Below, piece after piece: positions 4,967-58,783 of a stretch of 64,000 nucleotides of DNA. A program made the translations under genes and the position numbers. The notes under the pieces are model-generated. The model searched no databases and was not told the origin of the DNA. It was given only the letters and a program-made list of their open reading frames with translations. The stretch comes from Acidobacteriota bacterium (GTDB lineage Bacteria > Acidobacteriota > Terriglobia > Acidiferrales > UBA7541). Position 1 is the stretch's first letter, and every line of letters begins with the position of its first letter. Location: positions 1-64,000 of the forward strand of contig JACQDE010000079.1 of assembly GCA_016201285.1 (NCBI GenBank), given 5' to 3'.

Positions 4967-5500
4967 AGTAGCGCAGCCACTCTTGGCTGCGCTCTGTCCG
5001 CCCAAAAGTAGCACAGGCTATCAGCCTGTGCCCCGTAGGACAAGCTTTCCAGCCCGTCCGCCTCGTAGGGGCGCTGCTTGCCGCGCCCTTTGGAGTGCGG
5101 CGTCTCGACGCCGCTTTTCTTTTCGTCCGAGCAGGTTCGTGTAGCGGCAACCTGCGCGCTCTCGCGCAGGTTGCCTCGCTTTTCAAGTAGCACAGGCTTT
5201 CAGCCTGTGCCCCGGAGGACAGGCTTTCCATCCTGTCCGCCTCGTTGCGGTGCCGCTTTGCTTTGTCATCCTGAGTCCCGATGGTTTTGATCGGGACGAA
5301 GGATCTGCTTTTTCCTGACTTGCTTGTCCCCCTTGCACTGAGCGCAAGGTAGCGCAGGCTTTCCAGCCTGTCCGGCATCCAAGTACTTCGCAGCACCCGT
5401 ACCGCCGCGCTCTCGTCCTGCCTGCCTTGCTTGCCCTTAGGGAAATCTCAGCACCTGTAGCGGCGCGCTTTAGCGCGGCTATTCCTGCTCGCCCGTGCGG
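4967..5500. repeat. Cluster of dispersed palindromic repeats
   Basis: This gene-free stretch is packed with short near-perfect hairpins: AGCGCAGCCA/TGGCTGCGCT (4970-4993), AGCACAGGCT/AGCCTGTGC (5010-5031), a GGACAAGCTTTCCAGCCCGTCC unit (5038-5059), GCGGCGTC/GACGCCGC (5097-5114), GCAACCTGCGCG/CGCGCAGGTTGC near 5145-5174, another AGCACAGGCT unit (5188-5210), GGACAGGCTTTCCATCCTGTCC after it, and a further AGCGCAGGCT/AGCCTGTCC unit near 5350. A GTCATCCTGAGTC... unit starts at 5265. Related units recur elsewhere in the window, so these are dispersed, REP-like sequences. No ORF in the region looks genuine. Confidence 0.8.
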
Positions 5501-46477: not shown

Positions 46478-46640
46478 GATGGGACACATCGGGTTGAAAT
46501 TCGTTCGTGCATCCCGGCAGGAAAGTATAGCATCCACTTGAGCGGCGCGTTTGTGGCCGGGCCGCGTGCGCGCGCCCGGAGGGTCTGCTAGAATGCGGCG
46601 GTTTCTTGAACGCCGCGAAGCGGACGGCGCCCCCATCACG

Positions 46641-47873
46641 ATGAAATTGACCACCAGACGGCTCGTCTTCGGAGTGATCGCCATCGTAATCCTGCTGGTG
46701 ATCGCCCTGCGCTTCACCGGGCGCGGGGCGAAGCCGGAAGTCACCGTCCTCACGGTTGGGCGCGAGAACCTGAGCGCGATGATTGCCAGCAACGGCAAGG
46801 TCGAGCCGCTCGATCCGCACGTATTTCGCGCGCCGTTCGACTCGTTTGTCAGCCGCGTGCTCGCCGTGGAAGGCCACGCGGTGAAGCGCGGGGAGCTGCT
46901 CCTGGAGCTGGAAACCGCGGCGACCGCCGCGGCGCTGGCCCGCGCGAAAGAAGAATTGGTCGCCGCCGAAGAGGCCCTCCGTGCCGCGCGGGCCGGCGGG
47001 CCGGCGGCCGAAGTGGCGCAACTCGAACGGGACCTGCGCACCTCCGATGCCGAGCTCGCCCGCCTCCGGCGCGAGCGCGAGGCGCTCACCCGCCTGCTCT
47101 CGAAGCAGGCCGCCACCCAGGATGAGCTCGACCGCAACACGCTCGAGCTCGAACGCGCCGAAGCGCAGGCCCGCCTGGTCCAGCAGAAAAAAGAGGACCT
47201 CGCGCGCCGCGTGAAGCTCGACCAGGAGCGCGCGGCGCTGCTCGTCGAGCGCGCCCGCAACGATCTCCGCGCACTCGAGGAGAGAATCCAGCAGGCCCGC
47301 CCCACGGCGCCCGCGGACGGCACGCTGTTCGCGTTGCCCGTACGCGCGCGGGATTTCGTCCACGCCGGCGACGTGCTGGCCGAAGTGGCGGACCTGGCCC
47401 GCATCCGCGTCCGCGCGTTCGTGGACGAGCCGGAGCTGGGCGCGCTCGAACCCGGCCAGGCCGTCGAGATTACCTGGGATGCCGCGCCGGGGCGCGTCTG
47501 GAACGGGCGCAGCGAGCGGGTGCCCCGGGCCGTGGTCTCGCGCGGCACGCGCAGCGTCGGCGAAGTGCTCTGCTCGGTGGAAAACGTGAAGTCGGACCTG
47601 ATGCCGAACACCAACGTCAACGTGCTGATCCGGGTCCGCGAGCGGCAGAACGCGCTGGTGGTTCCCCGCGGGGCCGTCCGCGTGGAAGGGAACCGCCGCG
47701 TGGTGTTCGTTCTCGAAGGCAGCCGCCTGCGACAGCGCGAAATCCGTGTCGGCATCGCCAGCGCGGCGAAGTTCGAGGTACTGCAGGGTCTCTCCGAAGG
47801 CGAGCGGGTGGCGTTGCCCGGCGAAGTGATCCTGCGCAACGACCTTGAAGTTTCCGCGATCTCGCCGAAATAG
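46641..47873 (+). CDS. HlyD/MacA-type periplasmic adaptor of an efflux system
   Basis: From this ATG the protein has 410 residues. An N-terminal membrane anchor (about 9-25) is followed by a split biotinyl-lipoyl domain (about 40-95 and 215-250), a long coiled-coil hairpin (about 95-215), a beta-barrel domain (about 260-330) and a membrane-proximal end (about 340-405). This is the adaptor that joins an inner-membrane pump to TolC. The remaining parts (a MacB permease and a TolC-like protein) come 3.2 kb later on the same strand, after two minus-strand genes. In-frame ATGs upstream do not add family sequence. Confidence 0.9.
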   Translation: MKLTTRRLVFGVIAIVILLVIALRFTGRGAKPEVTVLTVGRENLSAMIASNGKVEPLDPHVFRAPFDSFVSRVLAVEGHAVKRGELLLELETAATAAALARAKEELVAAEEALRAARAGGPAAEVAQLERDLRTSDAELARLRREREALTRLLSKQAATQDELDRNTLELERAEAQARLVQQKKEDLARRVKLDQERAALLVERARNDLRALEERIQQARPTAPADGTLFALPVRARDFVHAGDVLAEVADLARIRVRAFVDEPELGALEPGQAVEITWDAAPGRVWNGRSERVPRAVVSRGTRSVGEVLCSVENVKSDLMPNTNVNVLIRVRERQNALVVPRGAVRVEGNRRVVFVLEGSRLRQREIRVGIASAAKFEVLQGLSEGERVALPGEVILRNDLEVSAISPK

Positions 47874-47996: not shown

Positions 47997-49454
47997 TCAT
48001 TCCACCCTGCACACTCTCACCCTTGCGTTCGCGTAAGGGCACGGCAACTCTGCCGCCGCTGGCTGCTCCAGCACGACCCAGGTGACGCCGTACTTCGCGC
48101 GCAGCCGCACAAAATCCTCCCGCCGGAAAATTTTCCAGCCCTGAACGGTCTCGAACTGCTCCTTCCAATCGCCAGCCAGTGCAGGGAAAAGCGAAGCCAC
48201 CGAGCGGTCCTTTGAGAAGTCCACGAGCATGCTGCGCTCGGCGAGCGCGCGGAATCCGTGGTTGTCTTCTCCGGGGGAATTCATGTGCATCGGATCGAGC
48301 GCAAAGAGCGCGTCGCGCGGCGTGTTGGCGCGGATCCAGGCGAAGGCGTCGAGCCATTCGTTCTGCGCGGCGCGTCCCGGCCATTCAATATGCGGGCTGG
48401 CCGGAAAAATGGCGCGCTGCGCGAGAAACATTCCGGCACAAATGGGCAGGAAAAGCAGCGCCCAGCGCCAGGCGCGGTCGCGCAGAACGCACCGGCCCAG
48501 CAGGCCGCCGCCCAGCAGGAAGAGCAGCACATAAACGAAATGCAGTTCGCGCATCGGCCGGAGCGCGATCAGCGGCTCGAGCTGCGGCACGGTCGTAATC
48601 AGCAAAGCGGCCGCGATGCCCGCCGCGCAGGACGCGGCGAGCCCCGCGCACACGCGCGCCAGCGTGGCCGCGCCGTTTTTCCGGCCCCAGCGCGCGAACC
48701 ACCCGAGCAGCAGCACCGGCCCGTACGCGCCCAGCCATTCGTACCACGTCCATTGCAGCGGAAAATGCTGCCGGCGTGGCCGCACGATTTCCCGCATCGC
48801 TGCGCCCGCCGGCGTCTTCTCCGTGCCCCACAGGAATAGCGCCGCGGGCACTGCCCCGGCTGCCGGTGCGGCGAAGCGCACTTGGAACAGCAAGTGCACC
48901 GCGGCGTAGAGGGCCACCTGCGGATGCGTAATCGCCGTGAGCGCGAGCCAGGCGAGTGCCCGTGGCCGCCGATCGAGCACCGCGCCGAGCGCAAGCAACG
49001 CGAACGCCGTGGCCAGCACGCGCGGGTGCGCGTACTGGTCCACCATCAGCACCAGCGTGCCCGCTACCGGGATGGTCATCAGCGACGCGACCATGGCCAC
49101 GCCTGCCCAGGGCGCCGCTGTGTCCGCAAAACACCGCCGCCCGATCCGCAGGCATCCGAGCAGCACCAGGAATACTGCGGCGCCGTGCCACAGCAACATC
49201 GCCCATTCCAGCGGCAGATGCGAGATGCGGATGGACAACGCGACCATCTCGCCGTACAGCATCCAGTGCGCTTGCGTGAGAAAGAATTGCGCGTCGTGCG
49301 GGAAAAGTGCGGGGTCGAGCGTCTTCTTGATCGCGGGCAGATAGATGGACTGATCTTCCACGCCGAAGTGGTAGCCATGGACGAGCACCGCCGTCGCCGT
49401 CAGCAACAGCAGAAAAGTTATGTCCCGAAAAGTCGTTTTTGGCGTTTCAGCCAC
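47997..49454 (-). CDS. Multi-TM membrane protein, first of a tandem pair
   Basis: The 485-residue protein has about ten transmembrane helices and no known catalytic motif. The N-terminus contains H-G-Y-H-F-G-V-E-D-Q-S-I-Y-L-P-A-I-K near 26-43, the middle V-D-Q-Y-A-H-P-R-V-L-A-T-A-F, and the end a soluble part with G-E-D-N-H-G-F-R-A-L-A-E-R. The layout is like polytopic GT-C glycosyltransferase-type proteins, but no DxD or similar motif can be assigned with confidence. The gene upstream on this strand is a close paralog (same motifs, about half the residues alike by eye). They face the opposite way to the efflux genes that flank them. Confidence 0.75.
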   Translation of the reverse strand: MAETPKTTFRDITFLLLLTATAVLVHGYHFGVEDQSIYLPAIKKTLDPALFPHDAQFFLTQAHWMLYGEMVALSIRISHLPLEWAMLLWHGAAVFLVLLGCLRIGRRCFADTAAPWAGVAMVASLMTIPVAGTLVLMVDQYAHPRVLATAFALLALGAVLDRRPRALAWLALTAITHPQVALYAAVHLLFQVRFAAPAAGAVPAALFLWGTEKTPAGAAMREIVRPRRQHFPLQWTWYEWLGAYGPVLLLGWFARWGRKNGAATLARVCAGLAASCAAGIAAALLITTVPQLEPLIALRPMRELHFVYVLLFLLGGGLLGRCVLRDRAWRWALLFLPICAGMFLAQRAIFPASPHIEWPGRAAQNEWLDAFAWIRANTPRDALFALDPMHMNSPGEDNHGFRALAERSMLVDFSKDRSVASLFPALAGDWKEQFETVQGWKIFRREDFVRLRAKYGVTWVVLEQPAAAELPCPYANARVRVCRVE

Positions 49455-49493
49455 GCGGCCATCCGAATTGCGCTCGTTGATGGGGATGAATTC

Positions 49494-50939
49494 TCATTCG
49501 AGGCGGCAGACCATCACCGTCGGATTGGCGTAAGGACAGTTGAGCCCGGCGACGCCGGGGCGCTCCACGACCACCCAGGTAACACCGTATTTCGCGCGCA
49601 ATTGTTGGAAGCCGGCCAGTTGAAAAGTTTTCCACGCTTCGCGCGCGCGCACTTGATCGCGCCACGCGTAGGCCAGTTCCGGAAAGAGCCCCACCACGCC
49701 GCGGTCTTTGGTGTAGTCGGCCATCATGCCGCGCTCGGCGAACGCGCGAAAGCCGTGATGGTCCTCGCCGGGGCGCTCCATGTGCCGCGGATCGAGCGCA
49801 AGATAGGCGTCGCGCGGCGTGTTTTGCCGGACCCAGTCGAAGGCTTCGACCCAATCGTTCCGCGGAGTGCGGCCCGGCCATTCAATATGCGGGCTGTCGG
49901 GAAAAACGTGCCGCTGGGCGTAGAACATTCCCGAGCAGAGCGGCAAGAACAGCAGCGCCCAGCGCCAGGCGCGCTTCCGCAGCACGAATTCGCCCAGCAG
50001 GCCTCCGCCGAACAAAAACAGGGCAATATACAGCAGGTGCAGCGTGCGCATCGGCTGCAGCGGGATGAATCGGTGCAGTTGCGGCACGCCGTTTACCAGG
50101 AGTCCCGCCGCCACTGTCAGCCCGCCGGAAAGCGCGAGCCGCCGGCAGATGTGCCTCATGGCCGGCGTGCCCCGCTGCTCGCCGAGGCGCGCGAAGCACG
50201 GCAGCAGCGCAATCGGCCCAAACGCGCCCAGCCATTCGTACCAGCGCCACTGAAAAATGAGCCAGTCCGGGCGGGTCGCCAGCAGCTCGCGCCATGCCGC
50301 GTTCGGAGGCGCCCAGTAGGGCAGGTCCGGCATCACCAGCGCCGCCGGTGTCCACCGCGGAACTCTCCACGCCAGCAGTGCCAGGTGGACGCAGCCGAAC
50401 AGCGCGATCTGCGGATGAATCACCCCGGCCAGCGCCACCCAGGCGAACGTGGAGAGCTTGCGGTCGAGCACTGCGCACGCGGCGAAAAGCACCGCGGCGG
50501 TGGCCAGCGTGCGCGGATGCAGATACTGGTCCATCATCAGCATCAGCGTGCCGGCAATGGGGATCGTGATCACCGAAACGACCATCGCCACGCCTGCCCA
50601 CTGGGCCACGCCGGCGGAGAAGCAGCGCCGGCTCAGCCGCAGGCAGCCCCACAGAAAAAGGTAGACGCTCACGAAATGCCAAAGGAACACGACGGCGTCG
50701 AGCGGAAGATGTGTAATCCGAACCGTGAACGCCACGATTGCGATCAGCAGCGTCAGCCGCGTCTGAGCCAGAAAAAACAGCGCATCCCGCGGATAAAGGC
50801 CGGGGTCGAGCAATTTCTTCACCGCCGGCAAGTAAATAGCCTGGTCTTCGACGCCCAGGTGGTAGCCGTGGATGAGAACGACTGCGGCGGTGAGAAGCAG
50901 CAGCAGCGCGAAATCGCGGAAGCTCATTTTGGGAGGCAC
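49494..50939 (-). CDS. Multi-TM membrane protein, second of a tandem pair
   Basis: The 481-residue protein is a paralog of the next gene: H-G-Y-H-L-G-V-E-D-Q-A-I-Y-L-P-A-V-K near 25-42, M-D-Q-Y-L-H-P-R-T-L-A-T-A, and G-E-D-H-H-G-F-R-A-F-A-E-R near the C-terminus are repeated almost exactly. It has about ten transmembrane helices and a soluble C-terminal domain. Its function is unknown. The conserved E-D-Q/D-Q-Y-x-H-P motifs, at membrane edges in both copies, are candidates for an active site. It lies 39 bases upstream of the paralog, so they form one unit. The gene starts 143 bases before the MacB permease, divergently. Confidence 0.75.
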   Translation of the reverse strand: MPPKMSFRDFALLLLLTAAVVLIHGYHLGVEDQAIYLPAVKKLLDPGLYPRDALFFLAQTRLTLLIAIVAFTVRITHLPLDAVVFLWHFVSVYLFLWGCLRLSRRCFSAGVAQWAGVAMVVSVITIPIAGTLMLMMDQYLHPRTLATAAVLFAACAVLDRKLSTFAWVALAGVIHPQIALFGCVHLALLAWRVPRWTPAALVMPDLPYWAPPNAAWRELLATRPDWLIFQWRWYEWLGAFGPIALLPCFARLGEQRGTPAMRHICRRLALSGGLTVAAGLLVNGVPQLHRFIPLQPMRTLHLLYIALFLFGGGLLGEFVLRKRAWRWALLFLPLCSGMFYAQRHVFPDSPHIEWPGRTPRNDWVEAFDWVRQNTPRDAYLALDPRHMERPGEDHHGFRAFAERGMMADYTKDRGVVGLFPELAYAWRDQVRAREAWKTFQLAGFQQLRAKYGVTWVVVERPGVAGLNCPYANPTVMVCRLE

Positions 50940-51082: not shown

Positions 51083-52282
51083 ATGTTCCGCAGCGAGGTG
51101 TTCCGGGTAGCGCTCGACGCGCTGCGCGCCAACAAAGTGAAGGCGTTTCTCACCATGCTCGGCGTGGTGATCGGCAGCGCCTGCATCGTAATGGTTGTCA
51201 CCGTGGCGCTCTCCGGCAAGCAGTACATCCTCGCGCAAATCGAAGGCGTCGGCGCAAACATCGTGTACGCCGAATTCGTCCGCTCCGGCGCGAAAGACGC
51301 GCTGGTGCTCTCCGACGAGCTTTCCCTGGCGGACATGGAGGCCGTCCGCGCCGGCATCCCGCAGGTGGCGGAAGCCGCGGCCACGCGTGAAATCCCGCAG
51401 ACGGTGGTGGTCGAAGGCGTCGAGCGCCCGGTCGCGATGGTCGGCGTCACCGAAGGCTTTCAGCGCATCCGCAATCTCGTCATTCTCCGCGGCCGTTTCC
51501 TGGACGCCGACGACATGGCCGTGCGCAGCAAGGTCTGCGTCATTACGCAGGAGCTTTCCAATCTGCTCTTTCCCGCCGAAGACCCGGTGGGCCGCAGCGT
51601 CCGTCTGGGCGAGCTGAGCTTCACCGTGGTGGGCGTCTTCCGCGAGCGCGTGGCCACGTTCGGCCAGTCGGAGATCAAGCGGGAATCCGCGGTGATTCCA
51701 TTTCCACTAATGAAGTACTACACCGAGGACTTCGTCCGCGTGCTGTACGCGCAGGCGGCGCGGCCCGAAGACGTCCGATCGGTGACGCGGCAGGTGGAAC
51801 AGGTACTGCGCAGCCGGCACCGCTCGGAAGCGGTGTACCTGGTGCAGAACCTGACGTCGCTGCTCGACGCGGCGAAAAACATTTCCTTCGCGCTCACCAT
51901 CGTCCTGCTGATCATCGCCTTCATTGCGCTGGTGATCAGCGGCATCGGCATCATGAACATCATGCTGGTCACCGTCACCCAGCGGACGCGCGAGATCGGC
52001 ATCCGCAAGGCCATCGGCGCGCGGCGGAAGGAAATCCTCTCGCAATTTCTTCTCGAGGCCTTCCTCATCAGCGGCACGGGCGGCGTCATCGGCATCGTGC
52101 TTGCCGTGATGATCCCGGTGATCATCGAGCCGCTGCTGCCCGGCAATCTGTCCGTGCCTATTTCTGGCATCTCCATCGCTGTGGCGTTTCTGGTTTCCTG
52201 TTTTACCGGCGTGCTCTTCGGCTACCTGCCCGCCGACCGCGCCGCCAGACTCCAGCCAACGGAATCGTTACGCTATGAATGA
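51083..52282 (+). CDS. MacB/FtsX-type ABC permease without its own ATPase domain
   Basis: The 399-residue permease has an N-terminal helix (about 20-42), a large periplasmic MacB_PCD domain (about 45-240) and three C-terminal helices with an FtsX domain (about 275-390; I-S-G-I-G-I-M-N-I-M-L-V-T-V and R-T-R-E-I-G-I-R-K-A-I-G-A-R). The MacB E. coli form has an N-terminal ATPase, absent here, so a separate ATPase must supply energy; none lies between the adaptor and TolC genes. The next gene encodes a TolC-like channel 54 bases later, so this is the inner-membrane part of the efflux system. Confidence 0.92.
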   Translation: MFRSEVFRVALDALRANKVKAFLTMLGVVIGSACIVMVVTVALSGKQYILAQIEGVGANIVYAEFVRSGAKDALVLSDELSLADMEAVRAGIPQVAEAAATREIPQTVVVEGVERPVAMVGVTEGFQRIRNLVILRGRFLDADDMAVRSKVCVITQELSNLLFPAEDPVGRSVRLGELSFTVVGVFRERVATFGQSEIKRESAVIPFPLMKYYTEDFVRVLYAQAARPEDVRSVTRQVEQVLRSRHRSEAVYLVQNLTSLLDAAKNISFALTIVLLIIAFIALVISGIGIMNIMLVTVTQRTREIGIRKAIGARRKEILSQFLLEAFLISGTGGVIGIVLAVMIPVIIEPLLPGNLSVPISGISIAVAFLVSCFTGVLFGYLPADRAARLQPTESLRYE

Positions 52283-52336: not shown

Positions 52337-53626
52337 ATGATTCGTTTCTTGTGGCGCTTTGTTTGTGCCATGGCCATTTTCGCCGTCATGGCTGCTGGCG
52401 CTTATTCCCAGGAGCCTTCTGAAAAGCTCACCCTCAAGCGCGCCGTCGAACTCGCCGTGCAGAACAGCGGTGAGGTGAAGCTCGCGCGCGCGCGGCTTGA
52501 CGTGGCCGAGCGCGCCGCCGGCGCGAGCCATTCCGTCTTTCTGCCGAACCTCTACACCGGCTCCGGCGCCGCCTACACAAACGGCTTTCCTCTCGGCGCG
52601 CCGCAGGTGTTCCATGTTTCCTACGTGCAGACGGTTTTCGATCCGGTGTTGCGTGGGCAGTATCGCGCCTCCGAGGCGCGCGCCGAAATTCAGCGCCTTG
52701 AAGCCGACCGCGTCCGCGACGCCGTGATCCTGCGCGCCGCTTCCTCTTATCTCGAGTTGGCCAAGGTGCGCCACTCGCTCCGCCTGCTGCGCCAGGAGCG
52801 CGAAAGCGCGACGAAAATCGCCGGCGTCACCCGCGAGCGCGCCCGCGAGGGATTCGAGCTGGATGTGGAAGTCACGCGCGCGGAGCTGACCGCCGCGCGC
52901 ATCGAGCAGCGCATTTTGCAGCTCGAAGGCCGCGAGGACGCGCTGGAAAACGACCTGCGCAGCCTGACCGGCGCTCCCGCGGGCCGCCGCTTCGAAGTCG
53001 AGGCTGAAGACCTGCCGCCGCAGCCGGAGCAACCCACCGCCGAATTGGTGTCGTTGGCGGTGGCCAACAGCCTCGACCTGAAGCAGGCCGAATTCGAGCG
53101 TCGCGCCCGCGAGCACGTGCTGAAAGGCGAACGCGGCGGCTACCTGCCCACCGTGGATTTTGTGGGGCAGTACGGAATTTTCACGCGCTTCAACAACTAC
53201 GACGATTTCTACCGCCGCTTCGAGCGGCACAACGTCACCATCGGCATCCAGGCGCGCATCCCGATTTTTGCGTCGCGCACGAATTCCGCCGTGAACCTGG
53301 CGCGCAGCGAGCTCACGGCCGCCGAGATCGAAGCCCGCCAGCGCCGCGGCGTGCTCGAAGCGGACGTCCAGCGCCAGGCCCGCCAGGCGCGCACGCTCGA
53401 CGCGGAGCGCGAAGTCGCTCGTCTGGAGCTCAAGCTCGCGCAGGAAAACGTACGCGTGCTGCAGGCGCAGTTCGACGAGGGCCGCGCCAACCTGCGCGAC
53501 CTCGAAAAAGCGCGCCTCGAAGAAAATGACCGCTGGCGCGCCTTTCTCGACGCCGGCTTCGCCCGCCAGCAGGCACGGCTCGAGCTGCTGCGCACCACCG
53601 GCCAGCTCGCGAAAGTCTTCCAATAG
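52337..53626 (+). CDS. TolC-family outer-membrane efflux protein
   Basis: The 429-residue protein has a signal peptide (cleavage near 26, A-Y-S-Q) and the two internally similar TolC halves (about 32-205 and 225-410), each with long helices and a short beta strand region. Typical signatures are A-V-E-L-A-V-Q-N-S-G (about 38-47) and R-A-Q-F-D-E-G-R-A-N-L-R-D-L in the second half (about 378-391). It forms the trimeric channel through the outer membrane and periplasm. GGAGG sits 7 bases before the ATG. It follows the MacB permease by 54 bases and is the last gene of that unit. Confidence 0.92.
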   Translation: MIRFLWRFVCAMAIFAVMAAGAYSQEPSEKLTLKRAVELAVQNSGEVKLARARLDVAERAAGASHSVFLPNLYTGSGAAYTNGFPLGAPQVFHVSYVQTVFDPVLRGQYRASEARAEIQRLEADRVRDAVILRAASSYLELAKVRHSLRLLRQERESATKIAGVTRERAREGFELDVEVTRAELTAARIEQRILQLEGREDALENDLRSLTGAPAGRRFEVEAEDLPPQPEQPTAELVSLAVANSLDLKQAEFERRAREHVLKGERGGYLPTVDFVGQYGIFTRFNNYDDFYRRFERHNVTIGIQARIPIFASRTNSAVNLARSELTAAEIEARQRRGVLEADVQRQARQARTLDAEREVARLELKLAQENVRVLQAQFDEGRANLRDLEKARLEENDRWRAFLDAGFARQQARLELLRTTGQLAKVFQ

Positions 53627-53810: not shown

Positions 53811-54695
53811 TCAAGGCTGAACGGCTACAACGCGAAAGCCTATGTGGTCGTAACGCCGCTCGGGTTCGAACCGCAATCGAAAGGCTGACCGGCAGGGCCA
53901 GCCTTCGTCGGCCCAGCACCCGCCCCGGCGAACCCGGGAGAGATCGCCGTGTTCGCTTTTTGTTGCCGAGCTCTTCGCGGAATACAAGTCGGGGTCCGTC
54001 CCTCCCGGCAGCCTCGCGTGGTACCAATCGCGGCACCACTCGAAAGTGTTGCCGTGCATGTCATGCAGCCCCCAGGGGTTGGCGGGGTAACTGCCGACTC
54101 TTGCGGCCCGGTTGAGCGAAGGCCCCTGCTCGGCCCCGTTGTACGACTTCCCCTTGAAGTTCGCCTGTTTGCTGCTGAGCTTGTTGCCAAACGAGGTAGC
54201 CGTCGTCGTCCCGGCTCGGCAGGCGTATTCCCACTGCGCTTCGGTCGGCAGCCGGAACTCCCAATCCTTCGGGAGGACGCCGGATTGGCGGCCGAGTTCG
54301 GTGAGTTTCTGACAAAATGCCTCCGCCTCCGCAAAATTGACGTTGCCAACCGGGAAGTCATCCCCGGCGGGCAACTCCGTCGTTAGTTCGCCAGGCAGCT
54401 TTCCGATGATCCGTTTCCACTGACCCTGTGTGGCCTCGTACTTGGCCATCCAAAAGCCTCTGGTCAGGGTCACCACGACTTGATCTTCCCCCGGTCGCCG
54501 TTCGGGTTCGCCGGGTGGGCTTCCCATGACGAACCGGCCGGGAGGGCACCAGCAGAGCTTGATGGCCTCGACTTCACGCTCTTCGCCGGCGTTCCCGCCG
54601 CGGAAGGACGAAGGCGGCTGCTGGGCCAGCACCGGTCTTGATGCCGCTGCCGCCGCGGTCGCCAGCGCACCGAGAAGTACTGACCGCCGTGTCAT
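53811..54695 (-). CDS. FGE/SUMF1-like sulfatase-modifying-factor protein with twin-arginine signal
   Basis: The 294-residue protein has M-T-R-R-S-V-L-L-G-A-L, a twin-arginine signal, with cleavage after about residue 24 (P-V-L-A-Q). The mature part is a formylglycine-generating-enzyme-like domain: M-A-K-Y-E-A-T near 84-90, R-L-P-T-E-A-Q-W-E-Y-A-C-R-A-G near 146-160, G-L-H-D-M-H-G-N-T-F-E-W-C-R-D-W near 214-229, R-R-G-G-C-W and G-F-R-V-V at the end. Classic FGE oxidises a cysteine in sulfatases, using a conserved copper-binding Cys pair that is not clearly present, so it may be a C-lectin-like relative. No sulfatase gene is near. The start gives the RR signal; frame extends upstream. Confidence 0.85.
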   Translation of the reverse strand: MTRRSVLLGALATAAAAASRPVLAQQPPSSFRGGNAGEEREVEAIKLCWCPPGRFVMGSPPGEPERRPGEDQVVVTLTRGFWMAKYEATQGQWKRIIGKLPGELTTELPAGDDFPVGNVNFAEAEAFCQKLTELGRQSGVLPKDWEFRLPTEAQWEYACRAGTTTATSFGNKLSSKQANFKGKSYNGAEQGPSLNRAARVGSYPANPWGLHDMHGNTFEWCRDWYHARLPGGTDPDLYSAKSSATKSEHGDLSRVRRGGCWADEGWPCRSAFRLRFEPERRYDHIGFRVVAVQP

Positions 54696-55141
54696 TCGGC
54701 TGCCACCGCTTGTCCGGATCTGGCCCAAGATTGCCCCCACTTCTGCGAGCATCACAAATACCGCAATCGCTGCCTAACTTTTGTCTAGGCTGATCTGCAT
54801 AAAACCCAACCCGGTCGGCATAACGGGAAGCACCAATGCCGAGTGGCGGCCCGGCGGCTGTAATGCCGAGTGCGCGGGACTTCTACCACGCGGTCGTAGA
54901 GCCTCGGAGTCGGCTCACCAGGGAACAGCCCCAAAGGTGATCGACGATCGGCCGGGGAGACATTCATGCCGCCTAGTCTTCCCAGGGATCCTTGGAGCCG
55001 GAAAAGGCTAATCTAATTACAAAGCTATTTGAACTGCGATGCAAGTCCAAAATTTCTTAGCCGGGAGGGTCTATTCGCGTATAATGTGTGATTCCGTGTG
55101 CGCGCCCGGCAGGTCGTGGTTTCCGCTGGAGAGGTCGTTCG
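54696..55141. other. Intergenic stretch between FGE-like gene and hpnJ
   Basis: About 450 bases with no convincing gene. The only clear element is the promoter near its right end. A GCCGAGTG... word occurs twice (about 54837 and 54863), and GATCGACGATCGGCC near 54939 is partly palindromic. Confidence 0.5.
55057..55085 (+). promoter_or_regulatory. Likely promoter of the hpnJ unit (TTAGCC-17-TATAAT)
   Basis: A perfect TATAAT (55080-55085) is preceded at 17 bases by TTAGCC (55057-55062), a weak -35. Start of transcription should be near 55092, 50 bases before the hpnJ start codon. Confidence 0.5.
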
Positions 55142-56656
55142 ATGCCATCCGTCATGAAAACGCTGCTGCTCAATCCGCCGAGCTTTGACAAGTTTGACGG
55201 CGGAGCGGGATCACGCTGGCCGGTTTCGCGTGAAGTCGAGTCCTACTGGTATCCCGTGTGGCTCACCTACGCCGCGGGGATGCTGCCCGGCAGCCGGTTG
55301 GTGGACTCCTCGCCGCAAAAGTTCACGCCGCAGATGGTCATCAACCTGGCGAAGGACTACGAGTTCCTCGTCGTGTTCACTTCGACCGTGGGCTTTGAGA
55401 GCGACTGCCGCCTGATTCGCGCGATGAAGGAGCAAAATCCTTCGCTGAAGGCCTGCTTCGTCGGCCCGCACGTAATGAACCAGCCGCACCAGAGCCTGAA
55501 GGCTACCGAAAACCTCGATTTCGTCGTGCGCGGAGAGTTCGACCACGCCATCGTCGAGTTTGCGCAGGGCAAGCCGCTCGCGGACATCCTCGGCATCAGC
55601 TACCGCGCAAACGGGCACATCCTCGACACGATGCCGCGGCCGCAGCTCCATACCGAGGAGCTGGACGCGCTGCCCTTCGCCACCGAGGTGTACAAGCGCG
55701 ACCTCACGATCGAAAACTACACCGTGCCGTTCCTGCTCTACCCGTTCATTTCGCTCTACACCACACGCGGGTGCCCGGCGCTGTGCACCTTCTGCCAGTG
55801 GCCGCAGACGATTTCCGGTCACGCCTGGCGCGTGCGCTCCACCGACAACGTCGTCCGCGAAATCGCGCAAGCCATCCAATTGTTTCCGCAGGCCAAGGAA
55901 TTCTTCTGGGACGACGACACCTTCAACATCCGCAAGGACCGCGTGCTGGACATCTGCGCCAAGTTCAAGCCGCTGAAGTTCCGCTGGTCGTGCAACGCGC
56001 GCGTGCACAGCGACTACGAGACGCTGAAGGCCATGGCTGACGGCGGCGCGCGCTTGTTCATCGTCGGCTTCGAATCCGGCGACGACCAGATCCTGAAGAA
56101 CATCAAGAAAGGCGCAACGGTCGAGATGGCCCGCACCTTCGTGAAGAACTGCAAGAATCTGGGCATCCGCGTACATGGCGACTTTATCCTCGGTCTCCCC
56201 GGCGAAACGAAAGAAACGATGCAGAAGACCATCGACTTCGCCAAGGAGCTCGACTGCGAGACCGTGCAGGTCTCCATGGCCCACGCCTTTCCGGGCACTG
56301 AGCTCTACAATTACCTCGCGGAAAATAATTTCCTGCGCACGGAGGCACTCACCGACGGCAGCGGCCGCCAGCTCCCGCACATGGAGTACCCCGGGCTCTC
56401 GCGCGAAGAGATGCTGGAGGGCGTGCGCCGCTTCTATGACGAGTATTACCTGCGCCCGCGCGTCGCGTGGCGCATCGTCAAGGAAGCGCTGTGGGACAGC
56501 CACGAACGCAAGCGGCTCTACCACGAAGCCGTGGAGTTTTTGCGCTCGCGCGCCGACTGGAAGAAAAAGGCGCGCCAGGGCATGGGCGGTTCCAAGCGCA
56601 TGGTCGGCGTTCCCGCCGCCGTCGAAACCCGCGCCGGCTCCGCGGCCCACGATTAG
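55142..56656 (+). CDS. hpnJ: Hopanoid-biosynthesis radical SAM protein HpnJ
   Basis: The 504-residue protein has a B12-binding-like N-terminal domain (about 5-150) and a radical SAM domain whose CxxxCxxC is C211-P-A-L-C215-T-F-C218. Other family marks are P-V-W-L-T-Y-A-A-G near 38-46, F-W-D-D-D-T-F near the strand after the cluster and G-F-E-S-G. HpnJ makes the cyclitol-ether head group of bacteriohopanepolyols by a ring contraction, together with HpnI and HpnK (known from Burkholderia). GGAGAGG is 7 bases before this ATG. Two small transporters follow after 8 and 1 bases, then hpnI. No hpnK or squalene-hopene cyclase is in the window. Confidence 0.88.
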   Translation: MPSVMKTLLLNPPSFDKFDGGAGSRWPVSREVESYWYPVWLTYAAGMLPGSRLVDSSPQKFTPQMVINLAKDYEFLVVFTSTVGFESDCRLIRAMKEQNPSLKACFVGPHVMNQPHQSLKATENLDFVVRGEFDHAIVEFAQGKPLADILGISYRANGHILDTMPRPQLHTEELDALPFATEVYKRDLTIENYTVPFLLYPFISLYTTRGCPALCTFCQWPQTISGHAWRVRSTDNVVREIAQAIQLFPQAKEFFWDDDTFNIRKDRVLDICAKFKPLKFRWSCNARVHSDYETLKAMADGGARLFIVGFESGDDQILKNIKKGATVEMARTFVKNCKNLGIRVHGDFILGLPGETKETMQKTIDFAKELDCETVQVSMAHAFPGTELYNYLAENNFLRTEALTDGSGRQLPHMEYPGLSREEMLEGVRRFYDEYYLRPRVAWRIVKEALWDSHERKRLYHEAVEFLRSRADWKKKARQGMGGSKRMVGVPAAVETRAGSAAHD

Positions 56657-56664
56657 CCCTCTGC

Positions 56665-57105
56665 ATGACCGCGCACAAAAGGCTTCGGACGAAAACTTAC
56701 GTCCTGCTCGCGTTGATGGTGTTTGCCGGCGCCATCGGCGACGTGCTGCTCAGCAAAGGCGTGAAGCAGATCGGCGAGCTGCACCACTGGACGCTTGCCG
56801 GGCTCTGCGCGTTCCTCTTTCAGGTCTTCACCAACGGCACCGTGTGGCTCGGCGTCGCCTGCCTGATCGGCTACTTCATTTGCTACACGCTCGTGCTTTC
56901 CTGGGCGGACTTCAGCTACGTGCTGCCGGCCTCGGCGCTGGTCTACGTGCTCGTGCCGCTGCTCGCGCGCGCCGTGCTCAATGAGAGCGTGACGCCGCTG
57001 CGCTGGGCCGGCGTGGCGTGCATCTTTGTGGGTGTGATGTTCGTTGGGCTAACGCCGCCGAGCACCACCCAGCCGCGGCGCGATTCCACGGCGGAGCAGG
57101 CCTGA
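56665..57105 (+). CDS. Small EamA/SMR-type membrane protein (hopanoid locus)
   Basis: The 146-residue protein has four transmembrane helices (about 12-30, 53-75, 79-97, 101-130) of the EamA/SMR type: F-A-G-A-I-G-D-V-L-L-S-K-G near 20-32, S-A-L-V-Y-V-L-V-P-L-L near 94-104, and R-W-A-G-V-A-C-I-F-V-G near 114-124. It resembles half of the ArnE/ArnF undecaprenyl-phosphate-aminoarabinose flippase. Its close place between hpnJ and hpnI suggests flipping of a hopanoid or hopanoid precursor, an inference. An open frame upstream is part of hpnJ. The partner gene starts 1 base after its stop. Confidence 0.8.
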   Translation: MTAHKRLRTKTYVLLALMVFAGAIGDVLLSKGVKQIGELHHWTLAGLCAFLFQVFTNGTVWLGVACLIGYFICYTLVLSWADFSYVLPASALVYVLVPLLARAVLNESVTPLRWAGVACIFVGVMFVGLTPPSTTQPRRDSTAEQA

Positions 57106-57106
57106 G

Positions 57107-57478
57107 ATGCGCACGGCACTCTTCGTCGCCATCGTCGTGCTCTCCAGCACGTTTGGGGAAATCGCCGTTACGCACGCGATGAAAATCATCGGCGAAGTTC
57201 ACACCTTCACGCCGCGTGCGATCCTGGGCGTGATGGGCCGCGCCTTCCGTCAGGGGTGGATGTGGACCGGTTTTGCGCTGATGACCGCCGGGTTCTTCGC
57301 CATGGTCGCACTGCTCTCGTGGGAAGACGTGAGCTTCGTGATTCCCGCCACGGCCGCCAGTTACACCGTCGGGGCGCTGGGCGCGAAGTTCCTGCTGCGC
57401 GAAACGGTGAACCGCGCCCGCTGGATCGGCGTGCTGATGGTTTCGATCGGCGTGGCCCTCGTCTGGGCCGGCAAGTAG
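57107..57478 (+). CDS. Second small EamA/SMR-type membrane protein (hopanoid locus)
   Basis: The 123-residue protein also has four transmembrane helices: S-S-T-F-G-E-I-A-V-T-H-A-M-K near 12-25, then F-A-L-M-T-A-G-F-F-A-M-V-A-L-L near 53-67, P-A-T-A-A-S-Y-T-V-G-A near 81-91, and R-W-I-G-V-L-M-V-S-I-G-V-A-L near 105-118. Paired SMR-type proteins usually act as a heterodimer with opposite insertion; the pair here fits that. It starts right after the first one and ends before palindromic repeats. Confidence 0.8.
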   Translation: MRTALFVAIVVLSSTFGEIAVTHAMKIIGEVHTFTPRAILGVMGRAFRQGWMWTGFALMTAGFFAMVALLSWEDVSFVIPATAASYTVGALGAKFLLRETVNRARWIGVLMVSIGVALVWAGK

Positions 57479-57560
57479 CACGTAGCACAGGCTTGTAGCC
57501 TGTGGCTGTCTTCAGGCGGACATCGTGCCGCACAGGCTGTAAGCCTGTGCTACAAAGCAC
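57479..57560. repeat. Inverted pair of palindromic AGCACAGGCT repeats
   Basis: GTAGCACAGGCTTGTAGCCTGTGG (57482-57505) and, 25 bases later, CACAGGCTGTAAGCCTGTGCTAC (57530-57552). Each is a hairpin; together they form a larger inverted pair. They lie between the second transporter and hpnI. Confidence 0.75.
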
Positions 57561-57616
57561 ATTTCCTCGCAGGTGTGCGAGCATCTGTTCCTCGCGAAGT
57601 GTGCGAGAATCTCCGC

Positions 57617-58783
57617 ATGCTTTGGACGGCCCTCCAATGGGTGCTCCTCGTCGGCCCACTACTTCCGTTTCTCTACTATCTCTTCGCAATCATCTGCGCT
57701 CGCCGCTTCTTCGGGACTGCACCGCCGCCCAACTCTGATTTCACACCGCCCGTCAGCATCCTGAAGCCCGTGCGTGGCCTCGACCCCTGCGCCAGCGAGA
57801 ATTTCGCGAGTTTCTGCCGCCTTGACTATCCGGAATACGAACTTCTCTTCTGCGTTGCCGACGCCGATGATCCCGCCGTCCCGGTGATTCAGAAGCTCGC
57901 CGCTGATTTTCCGCAGCGCCGGATTTGCCTCTTTATCGGCGCCGACGCGGTTGGCGCCAGCAATAAAGTGAACAAGCTCTGCCGGCTCGCGCGCGAGGCG
58001 CGGCACGACCTGCTGGTCATCAGCGACAGTGACATCGTTGTCGCGCCGGATTATCTCCGCGCGGTTGTTGCGCCCTTCCGCGACGCGCAAGCCGGCTGCG
58101 TCACTTGCATGTATCTCGGCATTGCCGAACGGCAGCTCGGCGCGGAGCTTGAGGAAATCGGCGCCACGTCGGACTTTTTCGCCGGCGTCCTCGTGGCCCG
58201 CGCGCTCGAAGGCGTGCGCTTCGCCTTTGGCGCCACGATGGCCACCACGCGCCGGCATCTCGCCGAAATCGGCGGCTTCGAGGCGCTTGCCGATTCCTTC
58301 GTGGACGATTTCGAACTCGGCAACCGCATCGCGCGCCGCGGCCACCGGGTCGTGCTTCTCCCGCACACCGTCTGGACCCACTATCCTGCACTCAACCTCG
58401 GCGACTTCCTCCGCCACCGGCTGCGCTGGATGCTCGCCGTGCGCGCCGCCCGCCCCGACCGCTACTTCGGCATGCTCTTCTCGATGGGCCTGCCGTGGAT
58501 CGCCGCTGCTGCCGCAGCCGCCTGTAGCACAGGCACGCTTGCCTGTGCTCCCGCCTTCGGCCTGTACCTCGGTCCGTATCTGGTTCTGCGTCTCGCGATG
58601 GCGTGGGTTGTCGGCGTTTGGGGTTTGAAAGATCCGGTCCTGCGGAAAAAACTCTGGCTTGTCCCGCTTCACGACGCGATCTGGTTTTTCACCTGGGTCG
58701 CGGGCTTTTTCACCAATCGCATCACGTGGCGCGGCACGCCCTTCCGCCTCCGCCGCGGCCGCCTCATCCCGCTCGAAAAATAG
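57617..58783 (+). CDS. hpnI: Hopanoid-biosynthesis glycosyltransferase HpnI
   Basis: The 388-residue family 2-like (ceramide-glucosyltransferase type) enzyme has an N-terminal helix (about 8-28), the nucleotide-binding strand P-V-S-I-L-K-P-V near 45-52, the D-S-D motif in V-I-S-D-S-D near 135-140, and R-H-R-L-R-W-M near 271-277, with hydrophobic segments at the C-terminus (about 290-370). HpnI adds N-acetylglucosamine to the hopanoid polyol before HpnK and HpnJ act. A palindromic dispersed repeat lies inside the frame and codes residues 303-312 ([10 protein letters not shown]) between two membrane segments without breaking it. hpnK is not in the window. Confidence 0.88.
58523..58551. repeat. 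Palindromic repeat inside hpnI
   Basis: TGTAGCACAGGCACGCTTGCCTGTGCTCC holds a perfect 10-bp stem (58526-58535 and 58540-58549). It matches the dispersed AGCACAGGC.../...GCCTGTGC units found between genes at 5.0, 5.2 and 57.5 kb. It is read in frame, in a loop of the protein. Confidence 0.8.

Follow-up and report, generated by a model that had tools for sequence, protein, structure and literature searches.

We analysed a 64,000-nucleotide stretch of DNA (the window: positions 1 to 64,000 of contig JACQDE010000079.1) from an acidobacterium of the order Acidiferrales, in which two small proteins with four transmembrane (TM) helices, here labelled SMR1 and SMR2, are encoded between the hopanoid head-group genes hpnJ and hpnI. 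Hopanoids are bacterial sterol-like lipids. The four genes lie in the order hpnJ-SMR1-SMR2-hpnI and run in one direction:

55142..56656, plus strand: hpnJ, B12-binding radical SAM enzyme converting bacteriohopanetetrol (BHT)-glucosamine to BHT cyclitol ether (TIGR03471, 684.7 bits, cut-off 577.6)
56665..57105, plus strand: SMR1, 146 aa, four-helix transporter half, predicted N-in/C-in (EamA PF00892, fold, charge bias)
57107..57478, plus strand: SMR2, 123 aa, four-helix transporter half, predicted N-out/C-out (fold, charge bias, fusions)
57617..58783, plus strand: hpnI, GT21-type glycosyltransferase converting BHT to BHT-N-acetylglucosamine (TIGR03472, 328.3 bits, cut-off 310; PF13506, 148.9 bits)

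In the known pathway HpnI adds N-acetylglucosamine (GlcNAc) to BHT, HpnK deacetylates the product and HpnJ forms the cyclitol ether (PMC12583986). Both enzymes of the window exceed their NCBIfam equivalog cut-offs, and HpnJ carries the radical SAM CxxxCxxC motif as CPALCTFC. A preliminary description of the locus had placed two small transporters between these genes, with gaps of 8 (hpnJ-SMR1) and 1 (SMR1-SMR2) bases, and both the arrangement and the gaps are as it described. Its picture of tight packing applies to hpnJ-SMR1-SMR2 but not to hpnI, which follows SMR2 more loosely, after 138 bases, or 96 bases if hpnI starts at the GTG at 57575.

The arrangement is conserved throughout the order, which the closest named matches (gp2 and Candidatus Acidiferrales records) suggest belongs to Acidobacteriota subdivision 2. 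Among 95 genomes of the order, HpnJ was found above the cut-off in 78 and as a partial match in four more, and the SMR2 profile matched 85. SMR1 and SMR2 lay between hpnJ and hpnI in 30/30 loci, as far as the short stretches reached; in a few the set was partial, either because the stretch was too short for one partner or because a simple search missed SMR2. Twenty longer stretches, mostly of the same loci with some from further genera, gave the same arrangement, one of them (L046) stopping after SMR1. Tabulated by genome, 82 had both HpnJ and SMR2, none had HpnJ only, three had SMR2 only (G019, G048, G049) and ten had neither, five of the ten being members of family f2 without HpnJ and five being assemblies 55-73% complete. 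HpnJ and SMR2 co-occur in the order far beyond chance (Fisher p ~3e-11, computed on genomes that are related by descent and so are not independent).

Beyond the order, HpnJ was present in 62 of 396 genomes from across the phylum, 58 of which also had SMR1. In a scan of the 80 closest named hpnJ loci, mostly from Acidobacteriota, both SMR genes were present in 69 and the exact order HpnJ-SMR1-SMR2-HpnI in 28. Pair-bearing loci include those of Granulicella mallensis, G. aggregans, Silvibacterium bohemicum S15, strain KBS 83 and Edaphobacter modestus, in the last of which the pair is 5 kb distant from hpnJ; the pair is also found in records labelled Myxococcota (L179, L210) and Nitrospirota (L195). 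Family f4, a large one in the same class, has hpnI elsewhere and the pair close to hpnJ. Nine of the 80 loci had neither SMR gene. Five of these genomes carry the pair elsewhere, and their loci (L151, L155, L200, L201, L206) were rejected as pair-less exceptions, as were L096 and L106, whose genomes hold the pair beside HpnK. The preliminary description had made its proposal depend on the genome context of hpnI and hpnJ in Acidobacteriota, and the pair occupies this position in nearly all such loci. None of the proteobacterial hpnI/J/K loci inspected, from Paraburkholderia, Mycetohabitans and Methylobacterium, contained it; a 116-aa hypothetical protein upstream of hpnI in Paraburkholderia was dismissed as an SMR on reading its sequence.

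Within these loci the pair is tied most closely to HpnI. Three genera of the order (g10, g12, g13) encode SMR2 and HpnI as one in-frame fusion with SMR2 at the N-terminal end, and the genome of the window has a second locus (contig 10, L224:7174-10944), lacking hpnJ, in which a MacB-like permease and SMR1 are followed by a 559-aa open frame that encodes fused SMR2-HpnI. The fusion also occurs in another family (G385, as HpnK-SMR1-SMR2-HpnI) and in the Myxococcota record L210. On a tree of 139 SMR2 sequences it requires three changes, at least two of them forced by well-supported branches, so it arose in at least two, and probably three, independent lineages. Genus g4 is without HpnJ and retains HlyD-TPR-MacB permease-TolC-SMR1-SMR2-HpnI, and in genus g2 extra copies of the pair mostly adjoin extra HpnI genes. 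The pair tracks hpnI rather than hpnJ. From the fusions and the patterns in g4 and g2, the HpnI product, in modified or unmodified form, is a likelier substrate than anything specific to HpnJ.

The preliminary description had also found hpnK missing nearby, and the absence proved wider: no match to HpnK (TIGR03473) was present in the whole assembly (93% complete), nor was HpnK found in either of the other two genomes of the genus (G051, G052). An HpnK-like match lies elsewhere in 76/95 genomes of the order, above the cut-off in just six. In other families the order is hpnJ-hpnK-SMR1-SMR2-hpnI, with HpnK scoring 288-306 bits (cut-off 232.6); the gene inserted there between hpnJ and SMR1 was considered as a replacement deacetylase and rejected, being bona fide HpnK. 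Because these acidobacterial lineages hold hpnK in the same operon, the transporters are not the reason for its absence. An earlier survey of cultured strains reported hpnI and hpnJ, without hpnK, in subdivisions 1 and 3 (PMC5462960). In the genus of the window the acetyl group may be retained on the head group, or a different deacetylase may remove it. Separately, HpnH-bearing genomes without HpnJ from families f32 and f43 (loci L234, L238, L241) hold HpnK with a single SMR1-like gene, accompanied by HpnI in L234 and L238, by a putative DegT-type aminotransferase in L238 and L241, and by an epimerase in L238; these neighbourhoods suggest a different sugar head group.

With lengths of 146 and 123 aa, four TM helices and a predicted EmrE fold, SMR1 and SMR2 have the make-up of SMR subunits, which are about 100 residues long. 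AlphaFold models built from alignments of 68 (SMR1) and 65 (SMR2) sequences had mean pLDDT values of 85.6 and 93.3, and Foldseek searches of the PDB matched SMR1 to EmrE and SMR2 to Gdx-Clo/EmrE, each with a probability of 1.00 (TM-scores to the target of 0.79 and 0.76 for the top-ranked EmrE and Gdx-Clo). We computed the Arg/Lys charge bias with the formula of an SMR review, in which paired SMRs are reported at +4/-4 (PMC9574504). Means of +3.9 for SMR1 (n=138) and -5.5 for SMR2 (n=123) were obtained with tight loops, and +1.7 and -6.9 with wide loop limits. As these opposite biases are near those of known paired SMRs, SMR1 and SMR2 would be expected to form an antiparallel heterodimer.

The fusions bear on the same topology. 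HpnI, like other GT21 enzymes, has one N-terminal TM helix followed by a catalytic domain, which has to be cytoplasmic to use UDP-GlcNAc. In the fusions a short linker joins the last SMR2 helix to this single helix preceding the cytosolic domain, so the SMR2 C-terminus must lie outside, in independent agreement with the topology predicted from the SMR2 charges. SMRs have a central TM1 glutamate, with Asn in its place in lipid SMRs. Residue 26 of SMR1 is D in 95 sequences, N in 42 and E in one, and residue 18 of SMR2 is E or D in all but one; a correspondence of these residues to EmrE Glu14 is suggested by position only. Predicted fold, four helices and an expected paired assembly liken the pair to EmrE and Gdx-Clo, the SMR drug and guanidinium exporters, but SMR1 and SMR2 have a fixed opposite topology, sit within a pathway operon, have an extra helix between TM1 and TM2 and are almost without matches to the SMR family model PF00893.

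SMR1 matches EamA (PF00892) at 29.5 bits, above the Pfam cut-off of 28.2, and SMR2 at 19.6 bits, below it; at E<=0.01 EamA is matched by all homologues (65/65 for SMR2), and PF00893 by 2/68 SMR1 and 5/65 SMR2 homologues. PF00893 matched neither protein of the window, and its sole match in the genome, an unrelated SMR on another contig, was set aside. Sequence searches of the PDB with the single proteins linked SMR2 weakly to NIPA2 and returned nothing useful for SMR1. The resemblance to ArnE/ArnF put forward in the preliminary description is real but weak: against the equivalog models NF011625 and NF002816, SMR1 scores 25.5 bits for ArnE (cut-off 92) and 21.8 for ArnF (cut-off 99), and SMR2 18.9 for ArnE (cut-off 92), hence by score they are not members of these families.

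ArnE/ArnF, the undecaprenyl-phosphate-L-Ara4N flippase of the SMR lipid subtype, is the best-known SMR pair of such a kind and carries an aminosugar lipid outward (PMC9574504). Both pairs consist of small four-helix DMT/SMR halves encoded within an operon making an aminosugar-bearing lipid, and their weak sequence similarity lies chiefly in the second half of the protein. Unlike ArnE/ArnF, SMR1 and SMR2 are linked to HpnI/HpnJ/HpnK rather than to Arn enzymes, have one half fused to a glycosyltransferase in several lineages and often keep the putative TM1 acidic residue. Apart from the pair, genomes of family f27 without HpnH (loci L235, L236) have a single distant SMR near putative ArnT-type glycosyltransferases, which could be a true Arn-type system.

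HpnJ genomes without the pair point to a possible substitute, HpnL, whose function is not established (PMC12583986). In the phylum set, searched as whole genomes, an HpnL-like protein was present in 3/4 pair-less HpnJ genomes (one by a partial match) versus 2/58 with the pair (p = 0.001), and outside the class in 3/4 versus 1/12 (p = 0.03). Two genomes (G123, G372) have the HpnL-like gene within the hpnJ/hpnI locus, as in Betaproteobacteria. An HpnL-like protein is present in two named genomes that lack the pair (G492, G495) and absent from two others (G490, G491). HpnL resembles the pair in being a polytopic membrane protein encoded beside hpnJ/hpnI/hpnK, in proteobacterial hpn clusters, and is mostly present where the pair is missing; it differs in coming from the unrelated LPG_synthase_TM family, as in MprF. 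These distributions are suggestive of HpnL as a non-homologous replacement of the pair. In one genome with HpnL and without the pair, an HpnK-like protein ends a long open frame adjoining hpnJ and hpnI (L094:7626-9833, minus strand).

Taking the linkage, fusions, predicted fold and charge biases together, we infer that SMR1 and SMR2 are an antiparallel heterodimer of the EmrE/Gdx fold, acting like ArnE/ArnF as a flippase of the HpnI-glycosylated hopanoid, with a probability of about 0.68. The fusion of one transporter half to the glycosyltransferase that attaches the polar head would be best explained if the transporter were a flippase taking over that enzyme's product. We know of no route for sugar-bearing hopanoids from the cytoplasmic leaflet to the outside. 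In the proposed mechanism HpnI, HpnK and HpnJ would act in the cytoplasm or at the cytoplasmic face of the membrane, and the sugar head would stop the hopanoid from crossing unaided. HpnI would hand its product to SMR1/SMR2, a transfer that in some species would take place inside a single polypeptide. The pair would then move BHT-GlcNAc, or a form of it deacetylated or converted by HpnJ, across the inner membrane from its cytoplasmic leaflet to its periplasmic one.

The strongest competing explanation, though an unlikely one, is that the pair is a membrane subunit of HpnI, which recruits or presents the hopanoid acceptor or anchors the enzyme without moving lipid across the membrane. The in-frame SMR2-HpnI fusions, which indicate close physical association, and the tendency of pair copies to follow HpnI copies would both fit such a subunit. 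HpnI in general needs none, however, because the proteobacterial HpnI loci examined are without the pair; SMR1 was never seen fused, the charged TM1 residues D/N26 and E/D18, apparently of a type that SMR transport depends on, have been retained, and HpnL, the alternative, is likewise a polytopic membrane protein. Less probable again is a pair that flips another lipid, for example an undecaprenyl-phosphate sugar, or exports a small pathway by-product, its co-transcription being regulatory. Known lipid SMRs do carry undecaprenyl-phosphate sugars (PMC9574504), and distant single SMRs adjoin ArnT-like and DegT aminotransferase genes, but the conserved neighbours included no recognisable undecaprenyl-phosphate glycosyltransferase or ArnT-like gene, and the phylum-wide co-occurrence with HpnJ/HpnI, the order with hpnK and the HpnI fusions indicate a hopanoid product. 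A functionally meaningless linkage inherited by accident in one lineage would suit a sample of mostly related Acidobacteriota and the absence of the pair from the examined proteobacterial hpnI/J/K loci, but is most improbable given its conservation over many families (28-56% identity to the SMR2 of the window) and in Myxococcota and Nitrospirota records, and its persistence through hpnI relocation, hpnJ absence, hpnK presence and repeated fusion.

Several observations count against a hopanoid flippase made of SMR1 and SMR2. The Foldseek E-values were just 0.04-0.09, above 0.01, probability and TM-score alone being good. One locus (L145:11521-13116) reads hpnJ-SMR1-hpnI with SMR2 not detected, through deletion or frameshift. 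Distant single SMRs adjoin ArnT-like genes in genomes without hopanoid genes, so the superfamily overall is not hopanoid-specific. The pair is missing in eight HpnJ genomes (four of the phylum set plus G490, G491, G492 and G495), three of which are also without HpnL, and every acidobacterial HpnL match falls under the family cut-off. Four genomes hold both the pair and an HpnL-like protein, which rules out strict exclusion and makes the complementarity partial.

We found no paper proposing a hopanoid flippase, in a search that mostly did not cover the subscription literature, so priority is uncertain. The available part of the acidobacterial hopanoid survey contains no mention of the pair genes (PMC5462960). 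A paper on Leptospirillum ferriphilum lists, without comment, an EamA-like transporter in a hopanoid cluster, together with glycosyltransferase and B12-binding/radical SAM domains (PMC12654047); it figures there only in a domain list, and the paper describes no pair, partner or function. A conserved candidate flippase with natural fusions and cultured hosts (among them Granulicella mallensis, G. aggregans, Silvibacterium bohemicum and Edaphobacter modestus) opens the question to direct experiment, points to a function for the orphan HpnL, and bears on which acidobacteria produce composite hopanoids, which are used as biomarkers.

Upstream of hpnJ the window carries the following genes:

46551..47873, plus strand: HlyD-type periplasmic adaptor, start codon uncertain (HlyD_D23, 64.6 bits; cluster 8, 12/21 loci)
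47997-50939, minus strand: tandem paralogues, two polytopic membrane proteins with a DUF6798 stretch, separating the adaptor gene from the permease gene
51083..52282, plus strand: MacB-like permease without ATPase domain (MacB_PCD and FtsX; cluster 4, 18/21 loci)
52337..53626, plus strand: TolC-family outer membrane channel (OEP PF02321, 148.5 bits; cluster 5, 18/21 loci)
53811-54755, minus strand: FGE-sulfatase (SUMF1-like) protein, weakly matching a TAT signal, located between tolC and hpnJ

Most loci of the order have an HlyD adaptor, a TPR protein, a MacB-like permease and TolC ahead of hpnJ, with tight packing in L045. In the window the HlyD/MacB/TolC set is present but broken up by minus-strand genes, and the TPR gene was not found in it. 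Family f4 has similar upstream sets, mostly without the permease, and TolC lies <=2.5 kb upstream in 32 of the 69 pair-bearing named loci. MacB-like permeases are common in Acidobacteriota, and a motif search near the locus for an ABC ATPase to serve this one found none, except one open reading frame in L051.

HpnN, the known hopanoid shuttle, shares a hopanoid transport role with the pair but belongs to the RND family and is concerned with delivery to the outer membrane. None of the order's 95 genomes had an HpnN match above the cut-off of 751.85 bits, the best scoring 64.5, in a search run without a positive control. Because no HpnN was found there, we propose the HlyD/MacB-permease/TolC set as a possible onward carrier, which, more speculatively than the flipping step, would take the lipid to the outer membrane. 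A full trans-envelope route separate from HpnN, running from HpnI/(HpnK)/HpnJ through flipping by SMR1/SMR2 or HpnL to HlyD-TPR-MacB permease-TolC, is conceivable yet doubtful; if it were true, HpnL would be a non-homologous hopanoid flippase in Proteobacteria.

The gap between SMR2 and hpnI contains a dispersed palindromic repeat around GTAGCACAGGC, which occurs at 57482-57553, 58524-58551 and 5008-5359 (nine matches versus 0.8 expected). One copy occupies part of the gap, and another lies in frame within hpnI, lengthening the protein by added residues.

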